Translations under genes and position numbers: made by a program
The notes under the pieces: generated by a model
Databases searched by the model: none
What the model was told of the DNA's origin: nothing
The model's input: the letters and a program-made list of their open reading frames with translations, nothing else
From: Erpobdella octoculata
Taxonomy: Eukaryota > Annelida > Clitellata > Hirudinida > Erpobdellidae
DNA: 64,000 nt
Reading direction: 5' to 3'
NCBI GenBank assembly: GCA_963978895.1
Contig: OZ022243.1
Coordinates: forward strand, 11,616,896 to 11,680,895
Shown: piece by piece, positions 4,626-63,312 of the stretch
Layout of the letters: each line of letters opens with the position of its first letter
Position numbering within the stretch: position 1 is the first letter of the stretch

Positions 4626-4870
4626 TGTAATGTTTTTAGATTACGATATAATCTACACAGAGCAACAGATAACTTTATTAACCGATATACGAACGAATAC
4701 GAATATAAGAATCAGAATCAGAACATCAATGCGAACGTGAATATGAATGTGAATATCAATGCCCTTACAGGCAAGCTACGCTTCCTTTTATAGCCTGTTC
4801 TCACTCTGCATCCATACAACAATGACCGGAGTCCATGCATGCATCATACATCACACACTACGACATTACA
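4626..4870 (-). repeat. 3' LTR of gypsy element
   Basis: In minus-strand orientation this is the downstream LTR. It carries AATAAAG (plus-strand CTTTATT at 4673-4679), the likely poly(A) signal, and a copy of the TATA motif at 4784-4793. It starts TG and ends CA, and matches the copy at 9348-9592. Confidence 0.95.
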
Positions 4871-4885
4871 TCCCTCCCCTTCTTG
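4871..4885 (-). other. Polypurine tract of gypsy element
   Basis: The minus strand reads AAGAAGGGGAGGGA directly against the 3' LTR, the expected site of plus-strand DNA priming. Confidence 0.8.
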
Positions 4886-4934
4886 GAGAACAAAACATCT
4901 GCACTAAAACGGAACAAAAATAAAACAGCAAAAG

Positions 4935-7900
4935 TTAGTTCAAAACAAAATCCGCAAATCGGGCAGGCAGTCTGTGTTCACGCTTGGAGTGTCTCGCACT
5001 GTTTTGAACTGGCTGTAGGCTGGGCTGGTCTTCTACAACAGCTTGCGGTATGATAGTGTCGCTAGGTGCGATATCCTCTTCCACCAGGTCTTCAGATAGC
5101 TCCTTAGTCTGTGCACAGTTCGATAATCGCTTATCCAGATGCTTGAAGAATGACGAGTTGCGGGTAACTGATTGTCTGTCAGTGTTGCGTTCCGCAGTGA
5201 TCATGGAATGATTTTTCGACGTGACTGTGTACGGCACTGGTATGTATGGTGTCAGCGATTTGTTGTGTGTGGCTGGCTGTTTCACAAGGACTGTGTCACC
5301 TTCACTGATTGTTGATGGTTTTACATATGCTTTTTGATCAGCGTACTCTTTCATTTTAGACTTCATAAGAGCGTCCCTCTCACGAAAACTTCTGTCGTCT
5401 TGTGTGTCGTCGACTGGAAATGATGGAAAGATTGTTTTCATAGGACGACCAAAAAGCATTGTTGCAGGTGGGCGACCAGTTGTGCTGTGGGGTGTGGCAC
5501 GATATTGGCGAAGAAAGATGTTTTGTTCCTGACGCCAATTCTTACGTTCTAGTTGTGCCGTTTTAATAATTTTCTTCACTGTTTTCATGAATCGTTCAAC
5601 TTCGCCATTAGCACGCGGCCATAGCGGAGTAATTTTGCGATGTTTGAAACCCATATGCTCGGCAAAACGGGCGAATTCAATGCCATTGAAAGGAGGTCCA
5701 TTATCCGTTTTCATAATGTCACACGAACCGAATTCAGATAAGATGCGGTCAAGCTTTGGTATCACGCTGTGTGCTGCGGTTGATTGGACTATTTCGATTA
5801 CCGGGAAACGTGAATAATCATCAACGACTACGAGTAAGTAATCGCCAGTCGTTAATTGAGCAAAATCAACGCTTAACTCACTCCAGGGTGTTGATGGTAA
5901 TTGGCTCATTTGCAGCGGTTCACGATGTGGGGTTGAGACGGCGATCTGGCAGGCAAAACATGTTTTAACGCGTTCTTCAACCAGGCGGTCAATTCCGGGA
6001 AACCAAACTTTTTCCCTAATAAGAGCTTTTGTCTTGACGATACCTTGATGTCCTTGATGTGCTAGGTTGACTGCACGTTCCCTCAGTGATTCTGGAATGA
6101 CTATGCGGCTATTGCGTAATAGTATGTTATCTCCACTAACGCAAAGTTCATCGCGCACTCTAGCGAATGTATCAAAATCACTGGTATTCATATTAGTTTT
6201 ACGCGACCAATTACCTGTACGGATTGCTTCGATGACAGCAAGCAATGTTTTGTCTTTGACGGTTGCTGACGCAATTTCAACACGTGTCATGGCTTTTGGC
6301 ACTGCATGACCAACAAGGTAGTTGACGTATTCCTCGGCAATTTGTTCTTCACGGCTCGATCTGCCACTTGAGAGAGCTGGATGTCGTGAAAGATAATCGG
6401 CTGGGTTGTCATGACCAGGTCTGTAGACGATGGTTGCTTCGTACGGTTGAAGACGTAGCGTCCAACGCTCGATGCGCGCTGGTGGCTTAGATCGTGGATT
6501 GTTATAGAGAGTGACTAACGGCTTGTGATCAGTGTAAATTGTCACTGGTTTGCCATGGATATATATATGAAAATGTTCACAAGACCACACAACTGCAAGA
6601 GCTTCTCGTTCTGTCTGTGAATACCGTTGTTCGACATCAGTTAATGATCTACTGGCATACGCAATTATGTGTTCCTCGTTGTTCTTTCCACGTTGTATCA
6701 AGATGGCGCCAAGCCCGACTGGACTGGCGTCAGTGTGTATTTCTGTTTGTTTTTCAGAATCAAAATACGACATTACTGGAGCGTTGCATAGCTTCTGCTT
6801 GAGCTGTGCGAGTGCCGATTCTTGTTCATCAGTCCACTGCCATGGTGTGTCTTGTCGCGTTAGTCTACGTAGTGGCTCAGAAATAGTTGCATAGTTTGAA
6901 ATGAAACGAGCACAATAGTTGGTCATACCGAGTAAACTGCGGACTTCAGATGCGTTGGATGGAGTGTTCATGTTGACGATTGATTGAATCTTTTTCGGAT
7001 CTGCCATGATGCCATGCTGAGTGAAGACGTTACCAAAGAATTCGAGAGTGCGTTTTGCGTAAACGCACTTTTGCTTATTAAGAGTTAGTCCTTTTTCTCT
7101 CAGGCGTTGAAAAACAGCACGCAGATTGTTGAACATCTCCTGCTCGGTTTTACCGTAAACGAGAATATCATCACTAATGTTGATTGCGCCAGTTAATCCA
7201 CTTAGTGTTTCACGAATCGCATTCTGAAAGATCTCGGCAGCGCATGAAATGCCGAAGTTGAGACGTTTGTATCGACGCAATCCAACATGGGTTGAAAATG
7301 TTGTAATGTAACGTGATTCAGGTGCAAGTTCGAGTTGATTGTATCCTTGGTTTAAATCTAGTTTAGAAAATACAGCTGCACCGTTCAGATCACTGATCAG
7401 TTCATTTATAGTTGGCGTAATATGTCTCTCACGTTTAATTGCTGTGTTAGCTAGACGCATATCGACGCAGACACGTTTTTGACCAGTTTCGCTCTTGGGT
7501 TTGGGCACGACAACGACTGGACTCACCCACGGAGTAGCTCCTTCGGTCCTTTCAATGATGTCAAGTTCTTCGTCGTGCTTGAGCTGATCCTCTAGCTGTT
7601 GACGAACATGGAATGGTACACGACGATGAGGCTGTGCGACTGGTTGTACGGTGTCGTCGATGTGCAGTTTGACTTGAAAGTCTTTCAGTTTACCAACACC
7701 ACCGAATAGATCAGCGTATTCTGTCACGAGCTTATGGACAATTTGATCGCTAGGTGTCGTACGTTCACTGATCGGTTTTACGACATGGAGAAGATGTAAC
7801 GCTTGAGATGCCTCCCAGCTTAGCAGAGACCCTTCATTGCCATTGATTACGTAGAAGAGCGTATCGTACGATCGGTCCTTGTACCGAACATTAGCACCAA

Positions 7901-8162
7901 ATGTTCCTAATACCTTGAGGGGATTTTGCGCACAGTAGGCAAACACTTGTTTATTGTTTACCTGTAATTGCGGCGTAGGTTTAATCCTGCTAAAATCGCG
8001 CTGGCTCATTACGCTTACACTTGCCCCTGAGTCTGCGATGACTTCAATGACGGTGTCGTTTATATTAACTTGAAAATGTGGTAAACTATTTCTGACACTT
8101 AGTCGGTTCGAATAAACATTCAGAGCATGAACATGCCGATCCTGTTCAGGCGAATGTTTACA
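4935..8162 (-). CDS. pol: Gypsy protease-RT-RNase H-integrase polyprotein
   Basis: The frame is open from the SINE junction at 8162 to the stop at 4935. An in-frame ATG at 8009 starts a 1024-residue stretch, but the true product is probably a gag-pol fusion. Upstream of that ATG lies the aspartic protease motif DSGAS. Counting from it, reverse transcriptase spans about 150-330 with LDLNQGYNQLEL and catalytic Asp280/281 in ISDDILVYG. RNase H spans about 420-500 with HTDAS, TEREAL and YTDHK. Integrase has an HHCC finger at 651-687 and a DD35E core with D715, D769 and E805. All catalytic residues I looked for are present. The frame can no longer join gag because the SINE intervenes. Confidence 0.93.
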   Translation of the reverse strand, partial: CKHSPEQDRHVHALNVYSNRLSVRNSLPHFQVNINDTVIEVIADSGASVSVMSQRDFSRIKPTPQLQVNNKQVFAYCAQNPLKVLGTFGANVRYKDRSYDTLFYVINGNEGSLLSWEASQALHLLHVVKPISERTTPSDQIVHKLVTEYADLFGGVGKLKDFQVKLHIDDTVQPVAQPHRRVPFHVRQQLEDQLKHDEELDIIERTEGATPWVSPVVVVPKPKSETGQKRVCVDMRLANTAIKRERHITPTINELISDLNGAAVFSKLDLNQGYNQLELAPESRYITTFSTHVGLRRYKRLNFGISCAAEIFQNAIRETLSGLTGAINISDDILVYGKTEQEMFNNLRAVFQRLREKGLTLNKQKCVYAKRTLEFFGNVFTQHGIMADPKKIQSIVNMNTPSNASEVRSLLGMTNYCARFISNYATISEPLRRLTRQDTPWQWTDEQESALAQLKQKLCNAPVMSYFDSEKQTEIHTDASPVGLGAILIQRGKNNEEHIIAYASRSLTDVEQRYSQTEREALAVVWSCEHFHIYIHGKPVTIYTDHKPLVTLYNNPRSKPPARIERWTLRLQPYEATIVYRPGHDNPADYLSRHPALSSGRSSREEQIAEEYVNYLVGHAVPKAMTRVEIASATVKDKTLLAVIEAIRTGNWSRKTNMNTSDFDTFARVRDELCVSGDNILLRNSRIVIPESLRERAVNLAHQGHQGIVKTKALIREKVWFPGIDRLVEERVKTCFACQIAVSTPHREPLQMSQLPSTPWSELSVDFAQLTTGDYLLVVVDDYSRFPVIEIVQSTAAHSVIPKLDRILSEFGSCDIMKTDNGPPFNGIEFARFAEHMGFKHRKITPLWPRANGEVERFMKTVKKIIKTAQLERKNWRQEQNIFLRQYRATPHSTTGRPPATMLFGRPMKTIFPSFPVDDTQDDRSFRERDALMKSKMKEYADQKAYVKPSTISEGDTVLVKQPATHNKSLTPYIPVPYTVTSKNHSMITAERNTDRQSVTRNSSFFKHLDKRLSNCAQTKELSEDLVEEDIAPSDTIIPQAVVEDQPSLQPVQNSARHSKREHRLPARFADFVLN

Positions 8163-8375
8163 GATGTCCGATGTAAATAAAATGTAAATGTTTTGCTAAT
8201 TTATTGAGCGCCTTTTCCGCTTTGTTCAAAGGCGCTGTTCTTTTACATGCCCCACGGAGAGAACGATTTTACCCGCTAAATTTTCCGTTGACATGGGCTA
8301 CTAGGCAGTGAGTGGGAGTCGAACCGTGAAGCTCTCACATTCAAGGCTAACCCTTTACCAACTCAGCTAACCGAT
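8163..8375 (-). mobile_element. 213-bp tRNA-derived SINE inside the gypsy element
   Basis: Flanked by a perfect 11-bp duplication, GAATGTTTACA (8152-8162 and 8376-8386). On the minus strand it starts with a tRNA-like head: A box TAGCTGAGTTGGTAAAGGG and B box GGTTCGACTCC. A unique body of about 120 bp follows, with an inverted pair GAGCGCC/GGCGCTC-type stem (CAGCGCCTTT...AAAGGCGCT). The end is an AT-rich tail with repeated ATTTACAT. The tRNA head does not close into a full cloverleaf, so it is a pol III SINE and not a tRNA gene. It adds a stop to gag shortly after the junction. Confidence 0.85.
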
Positions 8376-8386
8376 GAATGTTTACA

Positions 8387-9218
8387 AATGTTTACGTCGG
8401 CATCGACGTGACGAATGCGATGATGGTTGTTATATCGTGTGTTCGGCGGTCTACTTTGTGATCCACGATGCAATCTGTGTTGTGAGTCGTTGTTGCCGTG
8501 TCGTGATGTGCCGTCTTTTGAGCGACATTGTGACGCAAAATGATGCAATTTCTGGCATGAATTGCAAGATTTACCATGCGCCGGACACGATGCTTTTCCA
8601 TTTTGGTGTGGCCATGGACCACCACAATTCCGACACTTCACGTCGTCTGTTTTATTCTTTGAGTTGTTCGCATGGTTCAGTTTTTGTTTTAAATCGATTT
8701 TGTTCACCTGCTGCTCGTTCTCAATGTGCTTTGCATACATGTCTGACAGCTCCAAACTTCGACCGATGTCTAGCAGTTTTGCAAGAGTCATATCTGGTTC
8801 GCACAAAGCTTTGCGGCGTAACGTGTTTGACGAACAACTTTGAATAATTTGGGTTTTGATCTCGCGATCGACGTTTTCAAAAGCACATGTTGTTGAGAGC
8901 TGTTTGAGACGCGTGTAGTAAGCTGGTAGTGATTTGCCAGTGAGTTGCTTTGATTGACGAAACGTGTATATCTGAAACTCTGTGTTTTTCAAAGTGACTC
9001 TCTCCTTGGGCGGCTTCGGCGTCTGGCAGAGTATCAAAAATTTCGTTGATTTCCTCCCCGGCGTAGTGGAGCAGAAGAGCTTTTTGTCTTCTATCGTCGA
9101 CGATGTTGACGGCTACTAGCAGGTTGCGAAATCTAGAAATCCACTTCGTCCATCGAATTCCTGCAGACTCTTCCGAACTGACAGCGAATGATGGAAACGA
9201 TGGTAAAGCTTCAGCCAT
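8387..9218 (-). pseudogene. gag: Gypsy gag, frameshifted and cut by SINE
   Basis: The first frame, from the ATG at 9218, encodes a capsid-like N-terminus with RWTKWISRFRNLL. Near 9010 the reading continues one base out of phase (after DTLPDAEAA, resuming at KERVTLKNTEF) in a frame that runs to the SINE. That part carries a QSKQLTGKSLPAYYTRLKQL capsid segment and a Cys-rich nucleocapsid with a CCHC knuckle CNSCQKLHHFASQC. The single-base shift in capsid looks like a lesion and not programmed frameshifting, which normally sits at the gag-pol border. Confidence 0.85.
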
Positions 9219-9329
9219 AGTTGATTAGTTGATATTGCGAACTAAACTGTTTAAGCGATGAAAACGATAATAGATTCCTCGGAGTTTATCGACAGAAAAA
9301 ATTATCAAACTGTTCGCGAAAGTTCGTTT

Positions 9330-9347
9330 ACGAATCCTCGTCGCCAA
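9330..9347 (-). other. Primer-binding site of gypsy element
   Basis: The minus strand reads TGGCGACGAGGATTCG one base inside the 5' LTR. It would pair with a tRNA 3' end of the type ...TCGTCGCCA. I did not assign the tRNA. Confidence 0.7.
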
Positions 9348-9592
9348 TGTAATGTTTTTAGATTACGATATAATCTACACAGAGCAACAGATAACTTTAT
9401 TAACCGATATACGAACGAATACGAATATAAGAATCAGAATCAGAACATCAATGCGAACGTGAATATGAATGTGAATATCAATGCCCTTACAGGCAAGCTA
9501 CGCTTCCTTTTATAGCCTGTTCTCACTCTGCATCCATACAACAATGACCGGAGTCCATGCATGCATCATACATCACACACTACGACATTACA
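9348..9592 (-). repeat. 5' LTR of gypsy element
   Basis: The upstream LTR for the minus-strand element. It holds the promoter and is identical in length and apparent sequence to 4626-4870. Confidence 0.95.
9506..9515 (-). promoter_or_regulatory. TATA box in gypsy 5' LTR
   Basis: The minus strand reads CTATAAAAGG in the middle of the LTR, upstream of the AATAAAG signal, giving a usual U3-R-U5 order. Confidence 0.6.
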
Positions 9593-9636
9593 TATAGTGA
9601 ATAACTTTCTTTTTTGTTTTAAATCTAACTACAACA

Positions 9637-10180: not shown

Positions 10181-12092
10181 TTATAAACAAAAATCACAAA
10201 TATAGTCCTTAGCTTTGGTTGCAGCTGTACATTCTTTATGTGCCCATAAAGCACACACACGAAATCTAAACCATTCCTCGCCACCGCATCCAAACTCTCC
10301 ACACACCAGACAAATTTCCTTTGCTGGTTTGTTTTTAACACAGTTAGCTCTGGCCGGCTTTGATTTTTTAGTTGACGGACTCTTTTGACTGACACTTTTA
10401 TTTGACATTTTTAGCTTCTTAACCTTACGTTCACACTGCTGCACTCTAAGAGCTTCTTTGACTGGAGTGCTGGTAAGAACTGAAGACGATAGTTTTTTTC
10501 GACAGCCCATGCGCTTTTCTTGACGAGCCGGAGCCATCGGTAATGGACGAATGCTCAGGGGCGTCACACTTATATTTGATGGACCTGCTTCTCTAGTATC
10601 AGTAGATATATCAACCTGCTCAAGGATGGTCTCAGGTGGACATAAAAGAACTTGATTTTGATCATGTTGAATTGCTGGTGTAACCTCTTCATTTTTTGTC
10701 GTTGGACATGGACGATCTGTTACTTGAGCCAAACAAAAATCTTCCTCCTGCCACTTGTCAGGCTGAAAGGGATAAACCCCTGATGCTGCAAAACCACTGA
10801 TGACATTTGCAGGCATTAATGATTTGTTCCATGCTTTCCCAGATATTTCGGCAATATCATATATAGTAACAGTTTTTCCGGGATGTGCGACAAGCCATGA
10901 ATCTATTTCCCGGTTATACAGACGTTTGAATGGCCCATACACACTGACGTCAAGTGGCTGAAGTTTGTGAGATGTGTGTGGCGGTATGGAAAGGACTACA
11001 ACACCATTTTGAGCTGCCATATCAATAAATTCAATTGACAGGTGCGATTCATGGTTATCCAGAATTAACAAAACTGGTGCTGTTTTACTTGGACGAACCA
11101 CGTTGAGAAAATGTTGGAACCACTTGACAAAAGTTGTTTCAACCATCCAACCGGTCGATTGAGCTGTACCAGCGCACCCTGGAGATTCATTTCGCAAAAA
11201 GACGTCTTTAAAATGTACACGTGGAAAAATGTAAAATGGTGGTATGGAAGATCCACAAGCATTTACTGCATTACACATGGTAACAAGTGTTCCTCTTTCA
11301 GCACTTGTCACCGAAGCCACTTGACGAACACCTCTGCCTGCTATGACATGTTCTGGAACTAGCACAGTTGTCACTCCTGTTTCATCACAGTTCCAGATGT
11401 CCTTTGCCTCAAACTTATATTTAAACATCACATCCCGAAGATTATTATAGAAATATTCTACATTGTTTCTGTTGAAAGCAGACATACGCCCAATTGCAGT
11501 TGTTTCTGGTTTTCTGACTGACAGCTCCTGGTGGCGTTTCATAAAAGCTCTCAGCCAATTGTGTCCTGCTTGATGATTATCCTCCCATGGATTTGGACGT
11601 CCTTTCCTGGAATGTGGGAAACGCTTTTTCAATTTTGCTGCATACTCATAAGCCAGCTTTCTAAGCTTGAGAGTGCTCAATCCATAGCCTATTTTTGATG
11701 AACTCAAACAATAATCCACCAAAAGCTGTTCTTCTTCGGCAGTGAAAATTTTCATCAAACTCTTATTGTAAGCAGAACTGCAAATTAAAATAATAAACAT
11801 TTTTTATTATACCACATAAAAAATTTTTAAGTATAAATAATAAACAGCGGGTCAAAAGAATTTTTTTTCATTGGATTACAGAAAGTAGACACACATACCA
11901 AAGATTCAGGTCAGAATTTCCAGGCATTAGCTGTGCCACTTTAAGACGACGTTTTAGAGTTGATCTTTTGACAGAGAACACGTCAGCAGCCTTGCGCTCA
12001 GACAGTGTTCCATCCAAAACATCTTGGACAGCTCGCTGCATGTTAACTGCATCCCAGCTACCTTTAATTGATTGCACTTGTTGGGAATTCAT
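10181..12092 (-). CDS. pogo/Tigger-like (CENP-B/jerky type) DDE transposase, two exons
   Basis: Exon 1 runs 12092-11899 and exon 2 runs 11777-10181, joined by a GT-AG intron (11898-11778); the codons meet in phase for 596 residues. Exon 1 encodes a psq/CENP-B-type helix-turn-helix (residues about 10-50, LSERKAADVFSVKRSTLKRR). Exon 2 encodes the rest of the DNA-binding region and a DDE core: WNCDETG, LILDNHESH and QPLDVSVYGPF, with 35 residues between the last two aspartates. The C-terminus has a basic linker and a Cys/His-rich PHD-like finger (CLVCGEFGCGG...HKEC...CDFC). No internal stop is seen. The element lies next to a LINE tail and uses a TA-type junction. It could be an active transposase or a recently silenced copy. 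Confidence 0.85.
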
Positions 12093-16841: not shown

Positions 16842-18047
16842 CACTATACTCGTAGAAGATGCATGCGCACCATGGAAGCTATATAATTAGTTAATTTGTT
16901 CTTGTTTTTTTAATCAGAGATTGCCTTCTCTTAAAAGTCTAAAATGAATGAACACCCATGGCTAAAAAGCCCCATTTCCCCCAGAGTTCGTCCGATCGGC
17001 ACTTTGGCTAATGTCCGATATTATAAGGCAAGAAAATCCTTGTTTTAAGTGCTTTTATCAACTTCTAATTTCTGTTCCTATTTTTTCCAGTTTTTTTAGC
17101 GTTCCTGGTAAAAAGCTGAAATTCCTGCGGGCACCCATGTTCCTGCTGCAACTGCAGCTCTCATGGCTCTCAATGGATGACCTATAGTCCGATCAAATGT
17201 AATGTTATACCTTTAAATTTATTCATGATTTGAAATTTTTAGATAAAATGGAAGCTAATGCTGTGTTCTTTACGGCAAACTAAATAATTTATTCAAGGAA
17301 TACTTGGAAAGTTAGTAATTTTGAATCGAAAATGTACGAAGTTAAACGTGGGCGGTAATAGATATACCATACGTAAACAACATCGGTAATTCGTAAAATC
17401 CGTGGATTATATCAGGTTATTTGTAAATAAAATTACATTTACGTGATTCCTAACAAGTGGCCTGGGTCTAAACAAAAAAACTCGGTCTGGGACACCCTGC
17501 AAGTTCATAACCACGAATGTAAGCATAACCCTAGGGCCTGGCCAAGGCTCATGTTACTTTTTTTGCCTACTTTGTACATAATTATATTAGCATCACTGGC
17601 ATGTTAACTGAGTAATATCTTTCTCTTTCATTTTCGGTTTTATTTTTTTTTAAAGTTATTCTTTTATAACAATTTCAGGCAATGAGTGATTTCCTTGTGA
17701 TTATGAAAAATATTCTCTCATCATTACAACATTGATTTATTTAACAATAACATCAAGTATCTTATACAAGTTATTTGGAAGATGGCAGATGTTTAAGTTT
17801 AACATAACAGCAAAGAAAAATGACTATATACATGCAATATTGTCTGAAATGACTTATTTAAGTCATTAAATCCAGCGTCAAAATAGTTCTGTGTTGTATT
17901 GCCATGAAGAAAAAAAATGCAAAGTTCTACATCAGGGATGGATAGACGACATTAAATAACACAGTCTAACCAAGACGATACAGAAACTTGCAATTTGTTC
18001 AAAGGATAATGGCCACAGTAGTTTTAAAAAAATGTATTTTATTGATT
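16842..18047. other. Non-coding, AT-rich
   Basis: No gene, repeat array or terminal signature that I can support. Confidence 0.4.
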
Positions 18048-20607
18048 TTACTCAGCTGTGTCGTCAACTGCTGAAATTTGTTCTGGAGTTACAATGGGAG
18101 CATTTTCACACTGTCCACCACACTTGCAGTGAATACTGCAAGGCAATCGCTTTTTATAACATCCGCATGATGTGGAACATAACAATGCACCCTTGGAGCA
18201 ACTGCATCTGATCTCCTGGAGAAGTTCTGGTGGTGCCGGATTGATGTCTGTAATAATTGGATGGATTTCTGCACTTGTACATGTATAGCCATACTCTTCC
18301 TTTGGCAAACCTGATCTCAAAGATTTCCATGTATTTGTCTGAAGATGAACTCGCAAACTGTGGAAATATGCTGCCCTGGATGTCGGTGGAAGGCGTTCCA
18401 GTGGTACATACTTCGTTGACATCATAATCATGTACCTGAATGAAATTAAAATTAATTTGTATTTTTCACGTAATTTTATTTATTTTATTTACTATTAACT
18501 ATTTTTTTGTCGTCAAGACTTGGGTATCAAAATTTTGTTGTCTTATTAATAAATCATGTTTTACATTGAACAATTTATAGTTATGTTCTTGAAGTTAATG
18601 GAAAATTACATGGAACAACATGGTGTTTTTCAATTGTGCAAAACATCTTAACAATAACATTGTTTAACATACTTTGCATTTAAAGAAAATTTAAGTTATT
18701 TACCTCAGCTCATCTAAAGTATGAATGGATTCTTTCGAGCCATACAGAGACAGCATAAACTCCTCTCCAATGCATCTGATGTCATCTTTTGAGGTTTTGG
18801 AATTTCCAAATGCTCTAAGTTTTTCTTTTTTAACCTCAGATAATTTTTGCAATAATTTGAATGCTTTTAACTTTCCCTGACCAAAAAACAATGACGTCGT
18901 GTCACATCCTGACATTGCATGTACAAAAGGCAACAGTTCACACGCTGACTTTCCTATCACCTTCTGTGCCTCAACAATATTAATTGTGTTTGTTTTGGTT
19001 TGTATGAAAATAGGATGTTCCTCGGAAACATGATGGATCAATAAAACCAGAATATCTGTGTCTTCAGAAATTACTGTAACAATTTCTTTTGATCGCCTTG
19101 CAAGCTCTAGAGCCAAACGAACGATTACAACATCGGCATCACCTTCCTCTCCCGCATGTTGAACAGATATGTTTTTCTCAAGTAGACATTTTCCGAGCAT
19201 CAATATGTAGTTTTGCTTATTTTTTTTATTACTCAGAAAGTCAAACTTGTTTGAAGGAATTGAAAAATTTTCATGGATGATGACTTCTGCTGATTGTGGT
19301 GCATTCAAACGACGCCTTTTTTGTTCCTGATCTTTTGTTGTAATAACGTCATAACTATCAAAAATGACATGCGGATGTTGGTCTGGAAACTTTTTATAAT
19401 GAGAAAAAATGTAGTTAACAAAAAGATCACAAGAATCCTTGATGCTACCGAGTTTAGGCCATGGAAGCTGCTGAAGTACAGCACAGCCATCAATTACATT
19501 TATTCTTGAACATAAATCATTTTTGACACATATGTCTGGACTCAGAGTTACTATGTGCTTGCCAAGTTGTGACTTAGGAGTCCTCCTCATGCTTCCATCA
19601 TCTGTAAACATTGCTGGAGCAACTGACGACAGTTCATAACTGTACAAGGATGGGTCAGGCTGTTGTGAATGAGACGCGATCACAATTAATCTTTGACTGA
19701 GTTCTGCAGTAGAAACATGAATTTTTTCATTCTGTCCTAATACTATACTCTTCTTCATCACCGAAAAGGTTACCACTTGATCAGACTTTTCAAATTGGAC
19801 TTGACCAATAGATTTTCCTGTAATTTTTTCCTGAATTTTGTTACCATTGTATCTGCTTGATCAACATTCACGCAGTCATCTGCAATTAAACCAGTGGAAA
19901 TGTTAACCAGACATTTATTTACTTGTGTCACGAATGGATTGTGACTTCTGAAGAAAGCCAAAAATTTCTCAACATGAGTCACGTCGTTCTTGACACGTGC
20001 TGCGGCTATGTCTCTGTGTTGGGCAGACCATGTTCCAGAATATTGGCCGGTTAAATTTCTAATTTCATCGGAATATTGTGCTAGAATGTGCGTAGCTAGT
20101 AGCCACACTGTTTTAGCAGCTTCACGGTGAGTTAGCACTCACTTGAATTGAGAGGTCATCTCCACGTTGCCGGCATGCACATAAAATAGTATCTTGTACC
20201 ATACACTTCTTCTTACTGTCGATCAACTCTACCTTACAAACTTGTGGATAAAATGCTGGATTCCGATTGTATTTATCTATGTCTGCCCTTTTTGCACAGA
20301 TGATGCAGTGTGTTGGGTAGTCAAACGGATCTGAGATCTTTCTACGAGTGACACGCTTGGAAGGCGGAAGCAACTTGGCAGCATTCTCCTCGACGACTTT
20401 TTGGACGTTTAATTTGTTACTATAATCGCGTCGACACTTTTCGTGAATTAAAAAAAACGAGTTGGATGATGTCAGTCTTACGATGTCCTTATCAATGTCA
20501 TCTTCACGTTGTACTGATGCCTCTATAATCGTCTTCTGACCTTTCTCCAAAACATTCGACAACTTTCCACCTTTCTTGCAAATTATGCAGAAACTCATGC
20601 TAGACAT
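18048..20607 (-). pseudogene. PIN/FEN1-like plus CXC multi-domain family, copy 1 (broken)
   Basis: Function is not known. In reading order, 20607-20148 encodes two zinc-binding modules (CIICKKGGK with a downstream EKC; CIICAKRADIDK with a later CAC). 20138-19770 is a helical segment starting VLTHREAAKTVWLL. 19776-18705 holds a region with spaced acidic motifs (FDSYDVI, EEGDADVVIV, SEDTDILVLLIHH, SGCDTTSLFFGQGK), which resembles the 5'-nuclease PIN/FEN1 fold. After a GT-AG intron (18703-18436) the last exon (18435-18048) carries LPPTSRAAYFHSLRVH and a Cys-rich tail (CSCSKGALLCSTSCGCYKKR), like a CXC DNA-binding domain. A frameshift at about 19780 and a deletion with frameshift at about 20140 break the frame. 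Similar proteins are multi-copy in many invertebrate genomes, to my knowledge without an assigned function. Confidence 0.7.
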
Positions 20608-20962
20608 TTCTGGAACAAATAGAAAAAACTAGAGTGCTAACATTTAATTATAACATTATATTTATGTCATTAAATTCCAACAACTAATCTACTTATTTAG
20701 CTTACAATTTTAATAAAAAAGAGCTTGTCGCAACTTTATTATACGAGTTTGTAGGGATGCTGGAATCAAAATCTACAAGCAAACAGAATATTAAAGTTAA
20801 CTTTATAGAAATATTAAACACGAACCGTTGTCACCAGAGTCAGTAATGTCGTTAAAGAAGGAAATAGTGCACAGAAATATAAAAAACGTTGCATTGCCTA
20901 ATAACTAACAAATAATAAATGTAATAATAAATTAATTACTAATAATTACATGTTCCTACAAG
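20608..20962 (-). repeat. 5' flank shared by both copies of the PIN/CXC family
   Basis: This upstream block matches 56935-57110 plus 61622-61816 closely (CTAGACATTTCTGGAA side through TTAATTACATGTTCCTAC). The match ends abruptly at TGTTCCTAC in both copies, so the repeated unit has a defined outer boundary, unlike a random gene duplicate. Confidence 0.65.
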
Positions 20963-21813
20963 TTTCAGCTCAGCCGGTCAACTTATCGCTCACCTGTAGG
21001 CCAGTGTAGGCTATCAAACTCGCTCCGAAATCTTATTTAAATAAAGTTTTTACAAGCTGTTAACGACGGATTCAGATTAAAGACTATATTGTCTAACCTT
21101 TGAATATCTTTATTCGCTTCCAACGTTTTAATCCACCTTTCAAAATCAATTTTTATCCAACGTACCCAATAATAATAAACAGTTTCAAATTCGTTCAAAA
21201 TTTCATATGTTCCAAATATTTTACAAAAAAATTATTTCAACCACAATAATATACAAATTAACCCAAAGCTTTTCATATAAAGAAACATAATCATGAATAA
21301 ATTTTAAGCTATTGATGCGATTTTCAAACTTTTTACCGGACTACTAGTAGAGTGGTAACAGCAGGATGATAAACCATGGTCGAAGAATATTTTGAAAACT
21401 TTTTGATAATCTCAGTTAACGTTATTTATAAATTTTTAAATCGCTCGTGAAAGTTTCTGTCTTTTAGTTTTTTTGTTATTAAATATTTTTTAAAACTCAC
21501 CAAATATATCTGTATGAGTTTATATATAAATATCTGGATGTTTTATTATAACATTATTATACTGGCATTTCGACACTTGTTATATTCTTCAGTAAATTTT
21601 CGGGCTCACCGTGAGCTTCCCTTACTCAAAAATCCTAGCTACGTCAATGACAAGAGATCAATGAAAAATTTTAATTTTTAAGCAGGAGCGCTGCTCATGA
21701 ACAACAATGTCACATCCGATCAATTAGAAAATTTCCACCTACGAAAACAATCACAGAGCGTCAATAAGGAATATTATAGTATTTTTGTGACGCTCTTTTG
21801 ACTCTGTAGCCAT
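20963..21813. other. Non-coding, AT-rich
   Basis: No gene seen. A short stem (CAGAGCGTCA ... TGACGCTCTT) lies at about 21754-21798. Confidence 0.4.
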
Positions 21814-22627: not shown

Positions 22628-48876
<26,249 letters not shown>

Positions 48877-53784: not shown

Positions 53785-54414
53785 ATTTACCTTTTAATAA
53801 GTATTTCATGTTAGCAGTAAAAAAATTGCATCAAGTTTGTTTTCTTTTAATTCATTAAGCATTTTTGAAAACGGAAACGAAAACTGAAACTACATTAAAT
53901 GTTTCAAAACGAAATAGAAACTGGAACTAAAATAATGATAAAACTACAACAGAAACTGAAATAGAAATAAGCTTTTCGAAACGAAACGGAAAATTTGATA
54001 GAATGCATTGTTAATCAGTTTTGAGGTATTTTTAATTTTTTAAGTCTCTAGGTCATCGGGAAGTTAGTTTAAAATCGATTGCAAATTTGACGACAGACAG
54101 ACCGACAGAAAGACAAACAGAATATCATATGACGTTATTGATTTTTTTCTCGACGGAAACATATTCATCTGTAAAAAAATAATGATGATTAAGTCTTTTC
54201 ATTTTTAAATGCACTGTAGATCTATATGTAAAGATCAAAATTGTATAAACTACTATAAACATAAGTTATGAAAATGAATAACAGAAACTTTTATATATTT
54301 TTCCATACTAACCACTTTTTTCCGATAGAACATTGTGACAAGCAATAATACCCATCACATATGTGGTGTCATGTTCAGTGAATTACAGTTTGGTATAACT
54401 TCTGCCGCTCTTTA
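53785..54414. other. Non-coding flank of hAT remnant
   Basis: GAAACGAAA/GAAACTGAAA repeats at 53870-53990 mirror the composition of 52415-52560 and probably belong to the hAT ends. No gene. Confidence 0.4.
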
Positions 54415-55450: not shown

Positions 55451-56330
55451 GAGATATTGTCGAACTGCGCGCTTTTGCGAAAGACTTGTTTTTTATAAGG
55501 TCGCGTTATAAATTTTACTTTGTATTGTATAGTGAGGGTGTCTTCATTGTAATTAAAGTTGTCCGCAACCCACTGAACGAATCCACCTCCTTCACTTATT
55601 TCAACTAGACCAGGAGTTAACATTAGGAATCTGTATTTGGACAATGACCTGGCATTTAAGGAATTGTGTAACGGGCTGCAGGACGAGGAAACACATAATA
55701 GCTTTAAAATGACACCTTGCTTGCTATCAACATTTGGCTAGTTTTTGAGATATACGCTTTATGCTTAGAAGCACTTTATTCACTCAGTGATGGGGTTGAG
55801 AGCATTCGTGTGGAAAAACACCGAGTTTGTGAGCGCCTGCTATATGTTTTGGTTTAGGTTTTCATTTTGAATTTTTGGTATGTTATAGAAACACATAATA
55901 GCTTTAAAATGACATCTTGCCTACTAACAACATTTGACTAGTTTTTGAGATATCTGCTTTATGCGAATTACATTTTTGGGACATAGAAAAATATTTGTTG
56001 AGTTTGTATAGTTCCGTAACACATTTTGGTTGAGTTTTCAGTTTTGAATTTGTAATATGTTTTAGTAGCCCATATTTACTATTTAATGGCATTTTGATTT
56101 TATTTAAAAATTAGTTTCTACCGGAGATATTAAGCCCAAGCCGAACGCTACATTACCGGTCATTTTGTTTACATTTGGAGAAGTTTAAAATAGGTTTTCT
56201 GAGAAACATTTCGGGGTTTTCATAATGAAAATTAATGAAACGTAGTTATTTTGAGTTGCTTAATAAATACCAATACTTTTTTTATTTTTTTTTTGAAATT
56301 TTTTTGAGCGCATGCTAGCTTGACACATGC
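55451..56330. other. Non-coding, with a duplicated 100-bp block
   Basis: GAAACACATAATAGCTTTAA, AATGACACCTTGC and TAGTTTTTGAGATATACGCT occur at about 55689 and again at 55885. No coding frame recognised. Confidence 0.5.
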
Positions 56331-56333
56331 ATT

Positions 56334-57110
56334 TTACTGCACATTTCCTATGTTACGAGCGCCTGCTAGCTTGACTCCAGTGGTTAACTCCTCTGGTACC
56401 AGCACACTTGGTGAGGTGAATGTTGAAACACACGTTTTGTGGTAAACTGCCTGGGCAAATTCGATTCTAGCTCTCACTTCAATTGAGAGGTTATCTCCAC
56501 GTTGCTGGCATGCACATAAAATAGTATTTTGTACCATACTCTTCTTCTTACTGTCGATCAACTCTACCTTACAAACTTGTGAATAAAATGCTGGATTCCG
56601 ATTGTATTTATCTATGTCTGCCCTTTTTGCACAGATGATGCAGTGTGTTGGGTAGTCAAACGGATCTGAGATCTGTATACGAGTGACACGTTTGGAAGGC
56701 GGAAGCAACTTGGCAGCATTCGACGACTTTCTGGATGTTTAATTTGTTGCTATAATCGCGTCGACACTTTTCGTGAATTAAAACTAACGAGTTGGATGAT
56801 GTCAGTCTTAGGATCAATGTCATCTTCACATTGTACTGATGACTCTATGATCGTCATCTGACCTTTCTCCAAAACATTCGACAACTTTCCACCTTTCTTG
56901 CAAATTATGCACAAACTCATGCTAGACATTTCTGGAAAAAATAGAAAAAACTATAGTGCTAACATTTAATTCTAATTCCAACATTATATTTATGTCATTA
57001 AATTCCAACAACTAATCTACTTATTTAGCTTACAATTTTAATAAAAAAAGAGCCTGTCGCAACTTTATTACGTGAGTTTGTAGGGATGCTAGAGTCAGAA
57101 TCTACAAACA
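56334..57110 (-). pseudogene. PIN/CXC family, copy 2 (5' part only)
   Basis: Near-identical over long stretches to 20950-20140: same CIICAKRADIDKYNRNP module, same 5' non-coding block. It has small deletions that break the frame (4 bases at about 56720, about 8 bases at about 56815). Unlike copy 1 it continues after LSIEV with RIEFAQAVYHKTCVSTF, a segment deleted in copy 1. It lacks everything downstream: the helical, PIN-like and CXC parts. The 5' block is interrupted by the LINE at 57112-61620. Confidence 0.75.
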
Positions 57111-57262
57111 TAATATTTATTTATTTATTTGTTTAACCAAAAAGAGAGTCACAAATGACCACTAGCACAAATTGGTGAACGAAAACATTAAAGTGATCAG
57201 TATTAGTTAGGAATGGCAAAATGATTTAACCACCATGCATAGATGAAATCTATATAATTCAA

Positions 57263-58519
57263 TTAAATTATCAGAAACTTCTTCAAATCAGCATCAGAAA
57301 CGCAGGACTTAAAATGACTATGAGTTGTGGAGTTAACAATATGTGGAGCTATGAAGTTCCAAGGTTTCACGACCCGGCTGGTGAAGAAATGGAGCCTGTG
57401 AGTGGTGGAGCATTTTTCTTGGCGTAGACGAAGGGTTTGACCACGAGTGTGAGACAGCAGGAAATTAGGGAATTCAGGGGTGATGCAGTGAGTGAAACTA
57501 TATAGTATTTTGTGACAAAGGCATAAATCGTGGATAAATCGTCGATGTTCCAGTGTCTTTAAACCAAGTTTTTGAAGTCTTATCATATAAGGTAGAGTTC
57601 GTAATCCTGGTATGGCCCTTGTGAAAAATCTTTGAACTCGCTCAATCTTTGTTATAAACTGCTTGTTATGTGGGCTCCAGACCGGAGAACAATATTCAAG
57701 AATCGGACGAACATATGTGCAATACGCTTTGGTCAATATTTGCTTGTCCCTTAAACGAAAGCATTTGAGGATTAGGCGTGTTCTAACAAAGGCATTGTGA
57801 ATGATTTGGTTGATATGGGTTTTGAATTTGAGTTCACTGTCGACGATGACACCTAGGTCGCGTACATTGTCTGTGGAGGATATGGGTCGTGAGCAGATTG
57901 AGTATTTGTTGGGCATAATGCTGCTCCTCATTGTTTTGATGGAAGATTGGAGGCATTTGGCTGGGGCCAACTGTAATTGCCATTTTTTGCTCCATAACAC
58001 TAACTCGTCAATAGCAGTTTGAAGGGAAGAGCTGTGAGAGGATAATGATGATGAATAAAGCTTGATATCGTCTGCAAATAGTTTGTATTTTACAGAGTTG
58101 TCTGTAAATGCGTCTACAACATCGTTTATGTAAACAAGGAAAAGCGTAGGCACAAGGACATTCCCTTGGGGTACATCACTTGTCACATCTCTACTGTGGG
58201 ATAATTGGCTATTCACCTTGACAGCCTGAACCCGGTTCGCCAAAAACTTCATTATCCACAAGAACAGGTTGCCTGAAATTCCGTAAGCTTGAAGTTTTGT
58301 CAGTAATTTAAGGTGGGGCACTGAATCAAAAGCTTTTTTGAAGTCGAAGTATATAATATCAGTACCCTGATGGTCTTGCTTTGAGATTGACCAGTCATTG
58401 GTACACTCAATCAGATTTGAACATGTAGACCTTGAATTCAGAAAACCGTGTTGACTGGGAGACATGAGGTTGTTTGTCTGAAGGTAATTGAGGATGTCTT
58501 TATTGATTACCTGCTCCAT
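57263..58519 (-). CDS. LINE reverse transcriptase, C-terminal frame
   Basis: A 418-residue frame: QHGFLNSRSTCSNLIECTND, YFDFKKAFDSVPHLKLL (motif A), DVPQGNVLVPTLFLVYINDV (motif B), KLFADDIKLYSS (motif C, both Asp present), RDLGVIVDSELKFKTHI and RVQRFFTRAIPGLRTLPY. The frame continues upstream past the ATG (ISLTSSCFRAMEQVI) to a stop at about 58585, where a Lys codon probably mutated to TAA. Confidence 0.88.
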   Translation of the reverse strand: MEQVINKDILNYLQTNNLMSPSQHGFLNSRSTCSNLIECTNDWSISKQDHQGTDIIYFDFKKAFDSVPHLKLLTKLQAYGISGNLFLWIMKFLANRVQAVKVNSQLSHSRDVTSDVPQGNVLVPTLFLVYINDVVDAFTDNSVKYKLFADDIKLYSSSLSSHSSSLQTAIDELVLWSKKWQLQLAPAKCLQSSIKTMRSSIMPNKYSICSRPISSTDNVRDLGVIVDSELKFKTHINQIIHNAFVRTRLILKCFRLRDKQILTKAYCTYVRPILEYCSPVWSPHNKQFITKIERVQRFFTRAIPGLRTLPYMIRLQKLGLKTLEHRRFIHDLCLCHKILYSFTHCITPEFPNFLLSHTRGQTLRLRQEKCSTTHRLHFFTSRVVKPWNFIAPHIVNSTTHSHFKSCVSDADLKKFLII

Positions 58520-58647
58520 TGCACGAAAACAAGAAGATGTTAGCGATATTGGTCTGTAATTCCCTGGATCGGATGTAGAACCTTTTTAGTGAAATGGAGC
58601 AATATAAGCTGATCTCCAATGAAGGGGTATTTCATGCGTATTGAAAG

Positions 58648-59377
58648 TAGAGAGAGACACGGTAATACCGACCGCGGTAAATACCTCGGTTACGGGAACA
58701 AATTTCAATAATTTCACCATTACCGCGCGGTAACGGGGAAAATGGGGGGAAATTTTGCGGTAATGGGGAAAATGTTGGCGGTAATTCCGCGGGAACGGTA
58801 ATGAAGTTTTAAACTAATTTTTAAAAATTCAAAAAAATTTTTTTTACTTTGTTTTATCGTCTTTGTACTTTGTTTTATCGTCTTTGTACTTTGTTTAGCT
58901 AATTCTACCGGACTATCTTTCTTTTTGTATTTCATTTCGGTTGAATGTCCTGGTCTTGAATCGGTTTAATTTCAATAGTACATTTTCGCTTGTAGTTTTA
59001 AATAACACGGAAATGGGAAAATGCGACATCTAAAAATTATTTTCAATTAAAAGTGAACGCTTGCGATTCGACAAATGTCAAAACACTCATGGATTGAAGA
59101 ACTAAAACTAATATTTTTTACTTTCTTATTTCATTTAAAACATAACTATCTTTTTGCAATTTTTTTTAATAATTTACTTCAAAATAGAAATTTAAAATGC
59201 GGGAACAATGAGGGTTTGGGAATGATAGCTGCGGAGATGGGTAAGGGATGGGGACAGATATTGAGGAGATGGGGTGGGGATGGGGACATGGGGCGAGAGG
59301 ACAGTCAGGGGACGGGAAGAGAGTTTTCTTTGCGGGGTGGGGATGAGGAAGAAATGTTGTCCCAGTGTCACTCTCTA
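58648..59377. mobile_element. Non-autonomous hAT element inside LINE
   Basis: Ends TAGAGAGAGACACGG and CAGTGTCACTCTCTA; 8-bp duplication ATTGAAAG (58640-58647 and 59378-59385). It contains GCGGTAATGGGGAAAATG-type repeats. Removing it brings the two LINE ORF2 frames next to each other. Confidence 0.9.
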
Positions 59378-59385
59378 ATTGAAAG

Positions 59386-60370
59386 AGAAGTTGTGAATAT
59401 GGCAGAGTGGTACAGAAAGTCCAGCAGCACAATTTTTGAGTAGGCTATTTGAAAAACCATCAGGTCCAGATGATGAAGAAGGTTTGAGATTTCTTAGTGT
59501 CTGATAAATACGATCAGGAGTAAAAATGATTTTTTCAAGTTTGTTGTTGGTTCGAGCAGGCAAAATACAATTTGAGCCATCATCGACCGTAAATACACTG
59601 CAAAAATAATTGTTGAAAATGTTAGCAATCTCAGTTGGATCAGAGGTGAATGTTCCATCCTGACTTTTAATCTCCTGTATTGGATTATGTGTCGATAACT
59701 TTCTGTTGACAAATCGATAGAAACGACCAGTATCCCCAGCTGAGACAAGTAAACTTTCCTGTGATTTATGGTAGTCTTTTATACTTCTCCTGAGGTCTCT
59801 TGAAAATTGCCTGTAGATATATTTGCTTTCGATCCTCCCATTTGAACGCCATTCATGGAAGGCCTGCAGCTTAAGTTTCTGAGCCTGAACGATGAATGTA
59901 GGGTATGATGACTTTTTTACTTTTGTGGTTTTGATAGGTCGGTCTTGTCCTGGAGCAACACTCTGGATAGCATTGGTAACAATGTTGAGAAAATGTTTCC
60001 AGCAGTCATCAACCGAGAAGCAGTATTTAAACACGTCATCCCATCTGATTTCACAAAAATAGCTATTTAGGTTTCTAAAGGAGGATTTGGTTAGGTGTTG
60101 ATAATTTTGGCCGTGGAGCATATTTTGATGTCTGGGAAGGTTGGGTTTGAACACTAGAGTGTTGTGGTCGCTTTGAGCGATTGGGGGCATCATTTGAATC
60201 TGTGATATAAAGCAAGCATCGTTCGAGAGAAGCAGATCAATTATATTTGATTGACGAGTTTGAGATTCAACATATTGATGTAGTCCAATTTCATCTATAA
60301 AACTAGTAAATAAATAATAAACCTTGATGAGAATAGTTTTTCCAGTTCGTTTCAAGAAGATTGAAGTCAC
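59386..60370 (-). pseudogene. LINE ORF2: endonuclease C-terminus and RT N-terminus
   Basis: Encodes the endonuclease end (NIIDLLLSNDACFISQ, PPIAQSDHNTLVF with the SDH catalytic motif). The linker (SAGDTGRFYRFVNRKLSTHN) and the RT start (RNLKPSSSSGPDGFSNSLL) follow. The frame meets the hAT insertion. It is one frame off the upstream piece. Confidence 0.85.
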
Positions 60371-60705
60371 CCATAATGCATACTAACTTTGTATCATTGC
60401 ATAAGTGGGTGAGACATTGGATGCTCTTGAGAGGGTAATCCCCGGATTCAGAATTAAATCCTCCTGGTCTGTAGTAAATTATAACTCTGCATATTGAGCT
60501 ATCAGTGTAAATGTCGACACAAACAATTTCTATATGGTTATATTCAGGTGGAATTGAGACCTGTCTAACTTTAACTTTTTTCTTAGCAATAAGAGCCACA
60601 CCACCACCACGAGATCCCCTGTCATAACAACAAGCTTGGTATTCTTTAGGAAGAAATAGGCCTCCCGGTTCGTTATTCAACCAAGTTTCGGTTAAAGCAA
60701 AAAAT
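60303..60705 (-). pseudogene. LINE endonuclease N-terminal piece
   Basis: FALTETWLNNEPGGLFLP, RGSRGGGVALIAKKKVKV and IMGDFNLLETNW: APE-type endonuclease motifs (ETWL, GGG, GDFN). The first strand with its catalytic Asn is missing, so ORF2 has lost its start. It ends in a frameshift at about 60330. Confidence 0.8.
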
Positions 60706-60785
60706 CTTTAAATTATAAGTTTCTAAAAACAAAACAAATTTTTTTTGTTTATTTACAATACTTCGTAATTGCCCAGATCCTCGGT

Positions 60786-61553
60786 TCATACCCGAAAGGG
60801 CTGAATGTTGGATTGGACCAGAACTGAAGAAGGCTTCCCTGTTTCCTGGGCCGTCTTAGATTTCTTTTCACATCTTCTCAGATAAGCAGCTTCGGCCTCT
60901 CTAGGAGTTAGATCATGATTTATAAACACTTTCCTGATAGAAGGATCGGTCGACAGTCGGAGGACCCGAGACGAGGAACTTAGATCAGACACTGCTTCAG
61001 AATTTGTTAGAGTGACACAGATTCTGGTATTTGCAGGTTCTTTTCCAAGTCGGTGAACGTTGACGACAGCAAGTTTGATGGTGAGGTTTTGCTCAATGAA
61101 ATCTTGAATGAGCCTATCATCGTTAATTGAAGAATGAGGTGGCAAACCGGAGATTATGACGCTTTTGGAACGTTTGGTTTTATCAAGTTTTTCTTTCTCA
61201 ATATCCCACATGACATTTTTGATAAATGATAAATCCATGCTTGGAGGGCGGGCTGGAATAGCCCGCTCGAGCACCTCAAGTCTGGTAATGATGACTTTCG
61301 TCATATCGTTGAAGGTTTCAGAAATGGTTTTGGTGATTTGAGAGACCAATATCTGCACCATATTTAACAATGTCTCCATCATTTTACTCATGTGATCGTT
61401 TAGTTGCTTCATTAGTATATTTGAGTTTTCGTTTGCTTGTTTCATGACCAAACTTAAAATGAGTTCGAGAGAGTCCGCTGTCAGTGACTTCGCCATGTTT
61501 AGTAAACAATTATAAACGGGATGTCTAAAACTAGAAAACAGATTAAACCTCAA
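60786..61553 (-). CDS. LINE ORF1 protein
   Basis: 255 residues. The N-terminal half is a probable coiled coil (about 25-95, LMKQLNDHMSKMMETLLNMV). Then comes an RRM-like core (SKSVIISGLPPHSSINDDR, VNVHRLGKEPANTRICVTLT) and a basic tail (DLTPREAEAAYLRRCEKKSK). ORF1 proteins of this kind bind the LINE RNA as trimers. No internal stop. The start may be the Met at residue 20, as it precedes the conserved part. Confidence 0.75.
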   Translation of the reverse strand: MRFNLFSSFRHPVYNCLLNMAKSLTADSLELILSLVMKQANENSNILMKQLNDHMSKMMETLLNMVQILVSQITKTISETFNDMTKVIITRLEVLERAIPARPPSMDLSFIKNVMWDIEKEKLDKTKRSKSVIISGLPPHSSINDDRLIQDFIEQNLTIKLAVVNVHRLGKEPANTRICVTLTNSEAVSDLSSSSRVLRLSTDPSIRKVFINHDLTPREAEAAYLRRCEKKSKTAQETGKPSSVLVQSNIQPFRV

Positions 61554-61620
61554 TTTATCGAAGCAAAGTATTTAGAACAAGATTAATTGCAGTTTTATCG
61601 TCAGAGAAAGAAAGATCTTA

Positions 61621-61816
61621 AATTAAAGTTAACTTTATAGTTTTTATAGAAATATTAAACACTAACCGTTGACACCAAGAGTCAGAGTCAGTAATATCGT
61701 TAAAGAAGGAAATGGTGCAGAGATAAAGAAAAACTTCACAGAGATATAAAAAGCGTTTCATTGACTAATAACTAACAAATAAGAAATGTAATAATAAATT
61801 AATTACATGTTCCTAC
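61621..61816 (-). repeat. Outer part of PIN/CXC copy 2 5' block
   Basis: TTAAAGTTAACTTTATAG, AATATTAAACACTAACCGTT and GTTAAAGAAGGAAATGGTGC match 20790-20960. The match ends at CATGTTCCTAC, as in copy 1. Confidence 0.7.
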
Positions 61817-62055: not shown

Positions 62056-62570
62056 TTTATTGGTGCAGAGGCTCACGTAAGACCGAAGCCCACTTAAGTG
62101 CGTGGAGCCCAGATCAGTGCCGGGGCCCCTTGAGTGCGTAGGGCTCACTTCAGTGCTGTGCCCTTTTAAGTGCGTGGGAGTCGTGGGACCCACTTTAGTG
62201 CCAAGTGCCTCCTTAAGTACGTGGGGCCAACATTAGTGCCGGGGGCCTACTAAAAAGTCCGGGCCTATTAAAAATCAGGAGGGGCCCACTAACTTATGTG
62301 CCGGGGCTCACTTAAGCGCGGGAGACCACTTAAGGGTGGGGCCCACTTATGTGCGTTGGGCCCACTTTAGTGATGGGGCCCACTTTACTGCGTGGGGCCT
62401 ACCTTTAGTACCGGGGCCCCTTAAGTATGTGGGGCCCACTTTAGTGCCAGGGGCCCACTGAAAATTCCGGGAAGGGCCACTTAAAAATCCGGAGGGCACC
62501 CTGACTTAAGTGCGTGGGGCCCACTTTAGTGCCGGGGCCCACTGAAAACTCAGGGGGGCGACCCCTGCCC
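62056..62570. repeat. GC-rich degenerate minisatellite
   Basis: About 14 copies of a variable 28-40 bp unit built on CTTAAGTGCGTGGGGCCCAC and TTTAGTGCCGGGGCC. It is sharply GC-rich in an AT-rich window. Confidence 0.85.
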
Positions 62571-63312
62571 CCCCACTAATTGACGTCCATGGCCATGGAA
62601 GCATCTGCATCATCAGCGATCATGATATAAATCTTTTCTAAGAACTGCATCTTTGAATGATTGAGTGGTTTTTTATAGGTAATTTTAACTTATAATTATG
62701 TAATTTACTGCTTATTTTTTGTAAAAGTGCTATGTAAATTCATTTTGATTAAAAAATTTGAATTTATGAACAGGTAGTACACACTTTTTTGATTGAATTT
62801 GTTTACTTTTAAATTTGTTACGTTGTAATAATAAACTCGCGTGTGTAGGATCTACGAAATTCTACGATTTAACAGGTTATTCTACTATTAGTATGGTGCC
62901 GTACTGAATTGCCTACCCTGATTTTAGCCAATTTCGCCGGAATGCAAACCACCGATTTTAGCGAATTTCGCCTGAATTGCCGACTTGTCACCTCTACCTC
63001 TAGTCTACCTGTTTATTTTCAATTTTCAATGAAGCTAAAACTAAAAACTGCAGAATCTGCCTTAAAAGTTTTATTGGTGGGCATAATTATGTCAATAATA
63101 TCCCCGTATGCTAATGACATAAACAATTAATGAATAATAATTATTAATCAAAATTCTAGATAAAATCTTTATAAAAATGTTTACAATATAATAATGACGT
63201 GTGTGAAGTTAGCAATATCGCTGGCCGTGCAAATAAAAAAAATTGTGTTCATCAGGACTGTGCTATACAATGTTGGATGGGGTTTCAAAAATGGAATCTA
63301 ATGGTATAATTC
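62571..63312. other. Non-coding
   Basis: No gene. AATTTCGCCGGAATGC and GAATTTCGCCTGAATTGC form a short repeat at 62930-62980. Confidence 0.4.

Follow-up and report, generated by a model that had tools for sequence, protein, structure and literature searches.

A probable Academ-like deletion derivative in the genome of Erpobdella octoculata, with fuller relatives that join a DUF6589 core to a predicted flap nuclease

The stretch of Erpobdella octoculata DNA analysed here (64,000 nucleotides of contig OZ022243.1, positions 11,616,896 to 11,680,895; referred to as the window) carries at 17185-21343 a 4159-bp transposon copy with its gene on the minus strand, which is very probably a non-autonomous element that arose by internal deletion from a cut-and-paste DNA transposon, with Academ, lineage AcademX, as the closest named kind. 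Most likely it represents a new family of this known kind, likened to it by published descriptions rather than by Academ reference sequences. The gene is dead: it has suffered an internal deletion, the junction of which lies at 20133-20135, and a frameshift of one base near 19,846. A first-pass annotation had delimited a nuclease and CXC gene unit at 18048-20962 and proposed that it moves or is copied as an element; the mobility is borne out by aligned copies and compared flanks, with constant ends and a fixed target-site duplication, whereas the limits had to be redrawn and a transposase core in fuller relatives had to be added to the nuclease and the cysteine-rich tail. The otherwise puzzling nuclease/CXC architecture is thereby explained as that of a crippled transposon (Table 1).

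Table 1. Positions of the element, its parts, the second copy and the retrotransposon inserted into it
Feature	Window position	Strand	Basis or remark
Whole transposon copy, deletion derivative	17185..21343	-	4159 bp; ends common to fetched copies
Target-site duplication, left (CTA)	17182..17184	n/a	outer-base comparison
Target-site duplication, right (CTA)	21344..21346	n/a	outer-base comparison
Left imperfect terminal inverted repeat, tip TAGTCCG	17185..17248	n/a	end alignment
Right imperfect terminal inverted repeat, tip CGGACTA	21271..21343	n/a	end alignment
N-terminal coding part, zinc-binding Cys/His modules	20133..20607	-	open reading frame; alignment to P0009, P0011, P0012
Internal deletion junction	20133..20135	n/a	~700 residues lost, whole DDE/DUF6589 core; 3-bp CTA on both sides
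Open frame directly past transposase core position	19770..20138	-	coding frame shifts near 19846
FEN1/EXO1-like (PIN-fold) nuclease domain	18736..19575	-	predicted model mc8a3330dc72c, residues 96-375; Asp columns invariant
GT-AG intron, 268 nt	18436..18703	-	read from sequence; relatives' coding continues in frame
CXC-like cysteine-rich tail	18099..18209	-	below Pfam cut-off; conserved Cys in alignment A2
Second copy, N-terminal part and upstream DNA	56383..57117	-	pairwise match; from 56383 matches core-retaining derivatives
Second copy, upstream DNA beyond inserted retrotransposon	61622..61816	-	pairwise match
Second copy, transposase core piece	54118..54381	-	91.7-92.8% to L026/L027/L028
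Second copy, further core piece	55531..55616	-	on other side of reverse-transcriptase frame
Non-LTR retrotransposon splitting second copy	57118..61621	-	reverse transcriptase 57263-58585; endonuclease-like piece 60303-60707

Ends, copies and internal deletion

A search of the E. octoculata genome (386 Mb, 94 contigs) with window positions 19000-20962, in which 40 of 113 candidates were scored, gave at least 48 matches, at least 19 of which span the whole query, the window itself counted. From the top of the match list and from rows starting or stopping at the deletion joint, 20 further copies were fetched. On the left, a matching piece begins between 17174 and 17186 in every one of the 20, and on the right the match reaches 21343-21347 in 18; the two exceptions, L015 (stopping at 21210) and L027 (20918), show no right end in the part that was read. 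A single-piece match to 17185-21343, to within 11 bases on the left and 4 on the right, is found in 13/20; in L014, L024, L025, L026 and L028 the match also extends to both ends, divided into two pieces. The window copy and the fetched copies have in common the tips TAGTCCG...CGGACTA, the exact 7 bp of terminal inverted repeats that are imperfect further inward (local score 102 versus a maximum of 86 in 500 simple shuffles). Immediately outside, identical triplets flank 18 of the 19 two-ended copies, the window included, with a 4-bp duplication in none of the 19; the triplets differ only in L024, which has a different left tip. Mismatched pairs agree in 26 of 342 cases.

Two copies about 36 kb apart, both including upstream non-coding DNA, had been noted before and are found again: 20133-20792 corresponds to 56468-57117 at 91.6% identity and 20790-20959 to 61622-61816. 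The pairwise match does stop at one point (CATGTTCCTAC, at about 20962 and 61816), previously read as a sharp boundary of the unit, but 18 of the 20 fetched copies run on to 21343-21347. Two sequences necessarily stop matching at a shared position, so this edge alone carries no weight, and it was rejected as the element end: the second copy, split by a long interspersed nuclear element (LINE) of the non-long terminal repeat (non-LTR) kind, breaks off there. The endonuclease-like piece of this LINE scores below the cut-off of Pfam. Outside the broken end of the second copy, a GC-rich imperfect repeat (GGGGCCCACTTAAGTGC-like) occupies 62063-62592, and L012 has comparable DNA next to its copy of the element.

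No transposase is recognisable in the window copy because the roughly 700 residues encoding it are lost. The same junction is present in all copies checked at the joint (the window, L012, L016, L020 and L025), and its CTA is found on both parental sides, as read from L026/L028 and L024; the fuller, decayed copy L032 has about 2.96 kb extra between the two sides. L026, L027 and L028 are other derivatives, which keep most of the transposase core (to about residue 714 of protein P0013) without its candidate E and without the nuclease, and in L031 and L032 parts of core, nuclease and tail are present, but broken. None of the scored candidates of this search was seen to be an intact member of the window element's own family.

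The window copy and L009, L010 and L011 are 99.8-100% identical with gaps left aside and 99.5-99.95% with gaps counted, with 2 differences in 4159 bases between the window and L009. These four are the products of a very recent burst; as a genome feature, this recent burst of a deletion derivative is otherwise ordinary. Near-identity at four loci indicates that the crippled derivative moved recently, and as derivatives that move without a core require a protein supplied in trans, such mobilisation by a supplied transposase presumably took place. L020-L023, located at four places, likewise agree with one another at 100.0% when gaps are disregarded.

Two alternatives to a DNA transposon can be weighed on these copies. 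A tesmin-like, PIN-domain host gene family spread by segmental duplication would fit with the presence of an intron and with the names of relatives, one being called Tesmin/TSO1-like CXC and others, in the sister clade, carrying host-gene names. However, L009, L010 and L011 match the window only up to the ends of the element and nowhere outside, and the 3-bp duplications together with the shared inverted end motif speak against it, so that this explanation was rejected on target duplications and non-matching flanks and is left with a negligible probability. Equally negligible is the possibility that the copies are processed ones made by LINE machinery, as might be thought from the several reverse-transcriptase frames in the window: 13 fetched copies match without a break across the intron, and both ends are constant and inverted with a fixed 3-bp duplication. 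Since intron and both ends are kept, a retrocopy origin was rejected.

Protein architecture and an intact related element

The open pieces of the window gene lie on the minus strand at 20607-20133, 20138-19770, 19860-18704 and 18435-18048. The sequence does contain the zinc modules, the motifs SEDTDILVLLIHH and SGCDTTSLF and the cysteine-rich C-terminus listed in the first-pass annotation, and five Cys of the N-terminal modules are conserved in 21 of the 21 rows with letters at these positions (23 rows in all). The proposed PIN/FEN1-like nuclease is upheld as a FEN1/EXO1-like domain by a predicted model and by profile. The CXC assignment of the C-terminus holds in part: the tail is cysteine-rich with conserved Cys, but in the window exon it scores 12.6 bits against the gathering score of 23.5 of the Pfam family TCR (tesmin/TSO1 CXC), and a TCR match at E up to 1 was found neither in 7 members of A2 nor in P0011. 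In the deletion derivatives L012, L018 and L019 the frame is unbroken across the nuclease part (479 amino acids), so that a transposase-less protein could still be made.

In fuller relatives the order is a zinc-binding N-terminus, a DUF6589 core in which D, D and E are conserved, the FEN1/EXO1-like nuclease and the CXC-like tail; by profiles, core and nuclease are joined in one protein in all 62 of the 62 relatives of 1300 amino acids or more. The hitherto uncharacterised Pfam family DUF6589 is thereby tied to a protein with putative transposase and flap-nuclease parts. The model of the core shows a modest fold similarity to the Hermes transposase, the other rows of its fold search being mostly winged-helix (model residues 178-258), and the first Foldseek row is RAG1 at E 0.06. 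The tree separates the sampled relatives into two clades with long branches between them; in the second, deep DUF6589 clade (P0033-P0122), with a sea spider, a snail, corals and fish among its named sources, profiles find the nuclease in 76/90 and the CXC-like tail in 0/90. No helicase was found among the Pfam matches of the relatives scanned, nor among the precomputed domains of the 90 proteins listed in the P0033 search, which was made partly for helicase-fused relatives. Among viral contigs, 162 pattern matches yielded no confirmed relative.

A protein search of the same genome for intact relatives (32 of 914 candidates scored) gave at least four frames without a break, which score equally and have 33% identity to P0013; a fifth is interrupted by one stop. 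Two of them lie in a 5594-bp element (L029 771-6364 and L030 1345-6938, 99.98% identical to each other), and two more frames of equal score are located on contig C8. This element ends in TAGACCG...CGGACTA, similar to the ends of the window element, is flanked by TTA/TTA and AAG/AAG, and encodes a single frame of 1,496 amino acids, in which core and nuclease are present and the tail is matched weakly (E 0.005). As blastn at E 1e-3 detects no similarity between it and the window element, it belongs to a related family and is a candidate helper at most. It offers a system for probing what a flap nuclease carried by a transposon does.

Putative mechanism and other features of the window

The parent of the window element very probably encoded one protein with N-terminal zinc modules, a winged-helix-like part, the DDE core (DUF6589), the FEN1/EXO1/XPG-like 5'-nuclease and the CXC-like tail, and inserted with a target duplication of 3 bp. 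In an ancestral copy the whole DDE core was lost by a deletion with 3 bp of shared sequence at the joint, and the crippled form, with both ends kept, was multiplied. The core would act by DDE chemistry and carry out strand transfer. The nuclease might trim flaps at the transposon ends, 5' flap removal or cutting of the non-transferred strand being the role preferred here, and the tail might bind the ends or chromatin. Tentatively, and with less than even probability, the element's own flap nuclease can be considered its second-strand enzyme: joining of the 3' ends to the target would fall to the DDE core, and the FEN1/EXO1-like domain, placed by the CXC-like tail, would cut off the old flanking DNA at its 5' flaps. 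Labour would thus be divided in a TnsA-like way within one protein, in place of the host repair needed by other elements. For phage Mu, resection of 5' flaps after insertion is described in the cited account (PMC3325207). If the second-strand reading is true, the DUF6589 family would be the catalytic core of a large group of animal transposons.

The window harbours further features. An LTR retrotransposon at 4626-9593 is a very young insertion, with two 100% identical 246-bp repeats (4626-4871 and 9348-9593) and a pol frame at 4935-8195 for reverse transcriptase, RNase H and integrase. On the minus strand at 10181-11803, a 540-amino acid frame with DDE_1 and a Tc5-type helix-turn-helix is a pogo/Tc5-like transposase. 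Reverse-transcriptase-like frames at 29612-30859 and 33620-35830 appear Penelope-like by eye, with an RVT_1 match in the latter and no Pfam match at 0.001 for 29612-30592. A 665-amino acid frame on the plus strand (724-2721) includes the final part of a Tet/JBP oxygenase domain (E 4e-11) and may be an exon of a TET gene of the host.

Relation to Academ and other known systems

Academ elements have terminal inverted repeats, as does the element here, and the AcademX nuclease is of the XPG type. Academ is counted among the DDD/E transposase superfamilies in the literature (PMC9587614), and its mean length in a curated bivalve set is given as 5565 bp (PMC10294476), compared with 5594 bp for the intact relative. 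The short published description assigns target duplications of 3 or 4 bp to AcademX and of 9 or 10 bp to AcademH, a difference related to the encoded nuclease versus helicase (PMC10045372); the 3 bp in 18/19 copies here, the triplets of the intact relative and the encoded, predicted FEN1/EXO1-like nuclease agree with AcademX. AcademH, within the same named superfamily, is set apart by its helicase and longer duplications. The CXC-like tail is a feature of the proteins here, AcademX being compared by description only.

On the 3-bp duplication, the nuclease and the length of about 5.6 kb, which fit the published Academ traits, the element was filed as most likely Academ/AcademX. The same traits argue against a DDE and flap-nuclease transposon of an undescribed superfamily separate from Academ, which we consider unlikely, though well above the two alternatives discussed earlier. 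In its favour, the comparison with Academ/AcademX draws on a short published description without sequences, no mention of DUF6589 was found in the literature searched, and long branches separate the two clades of sampled relatives. The same literature never had Academ and XPG together as whole words in a paper, named AcademX in one paper, and gave no description of a CXC/tesmin/PIN or flap endonuclease/transposase/CXC protein of this kind.

Compared with hAT elements, which make 8-bp target duplications, the 3 bp found here set the Academ-like element apart despite the modest fold similarity of its core to Hermes, which to our knowledge has neither a nuclease nor a CXC domain. The nuclease resembles FEN1, EXO1 and XPG in its predicted PIN-type fold with conserved metal-binding acids (motifs FD, DAD, EDTD and GCD), but differs from them at 10-19% identity in the VIA rows listed and in being joined, in the relatives, to a transposase core.
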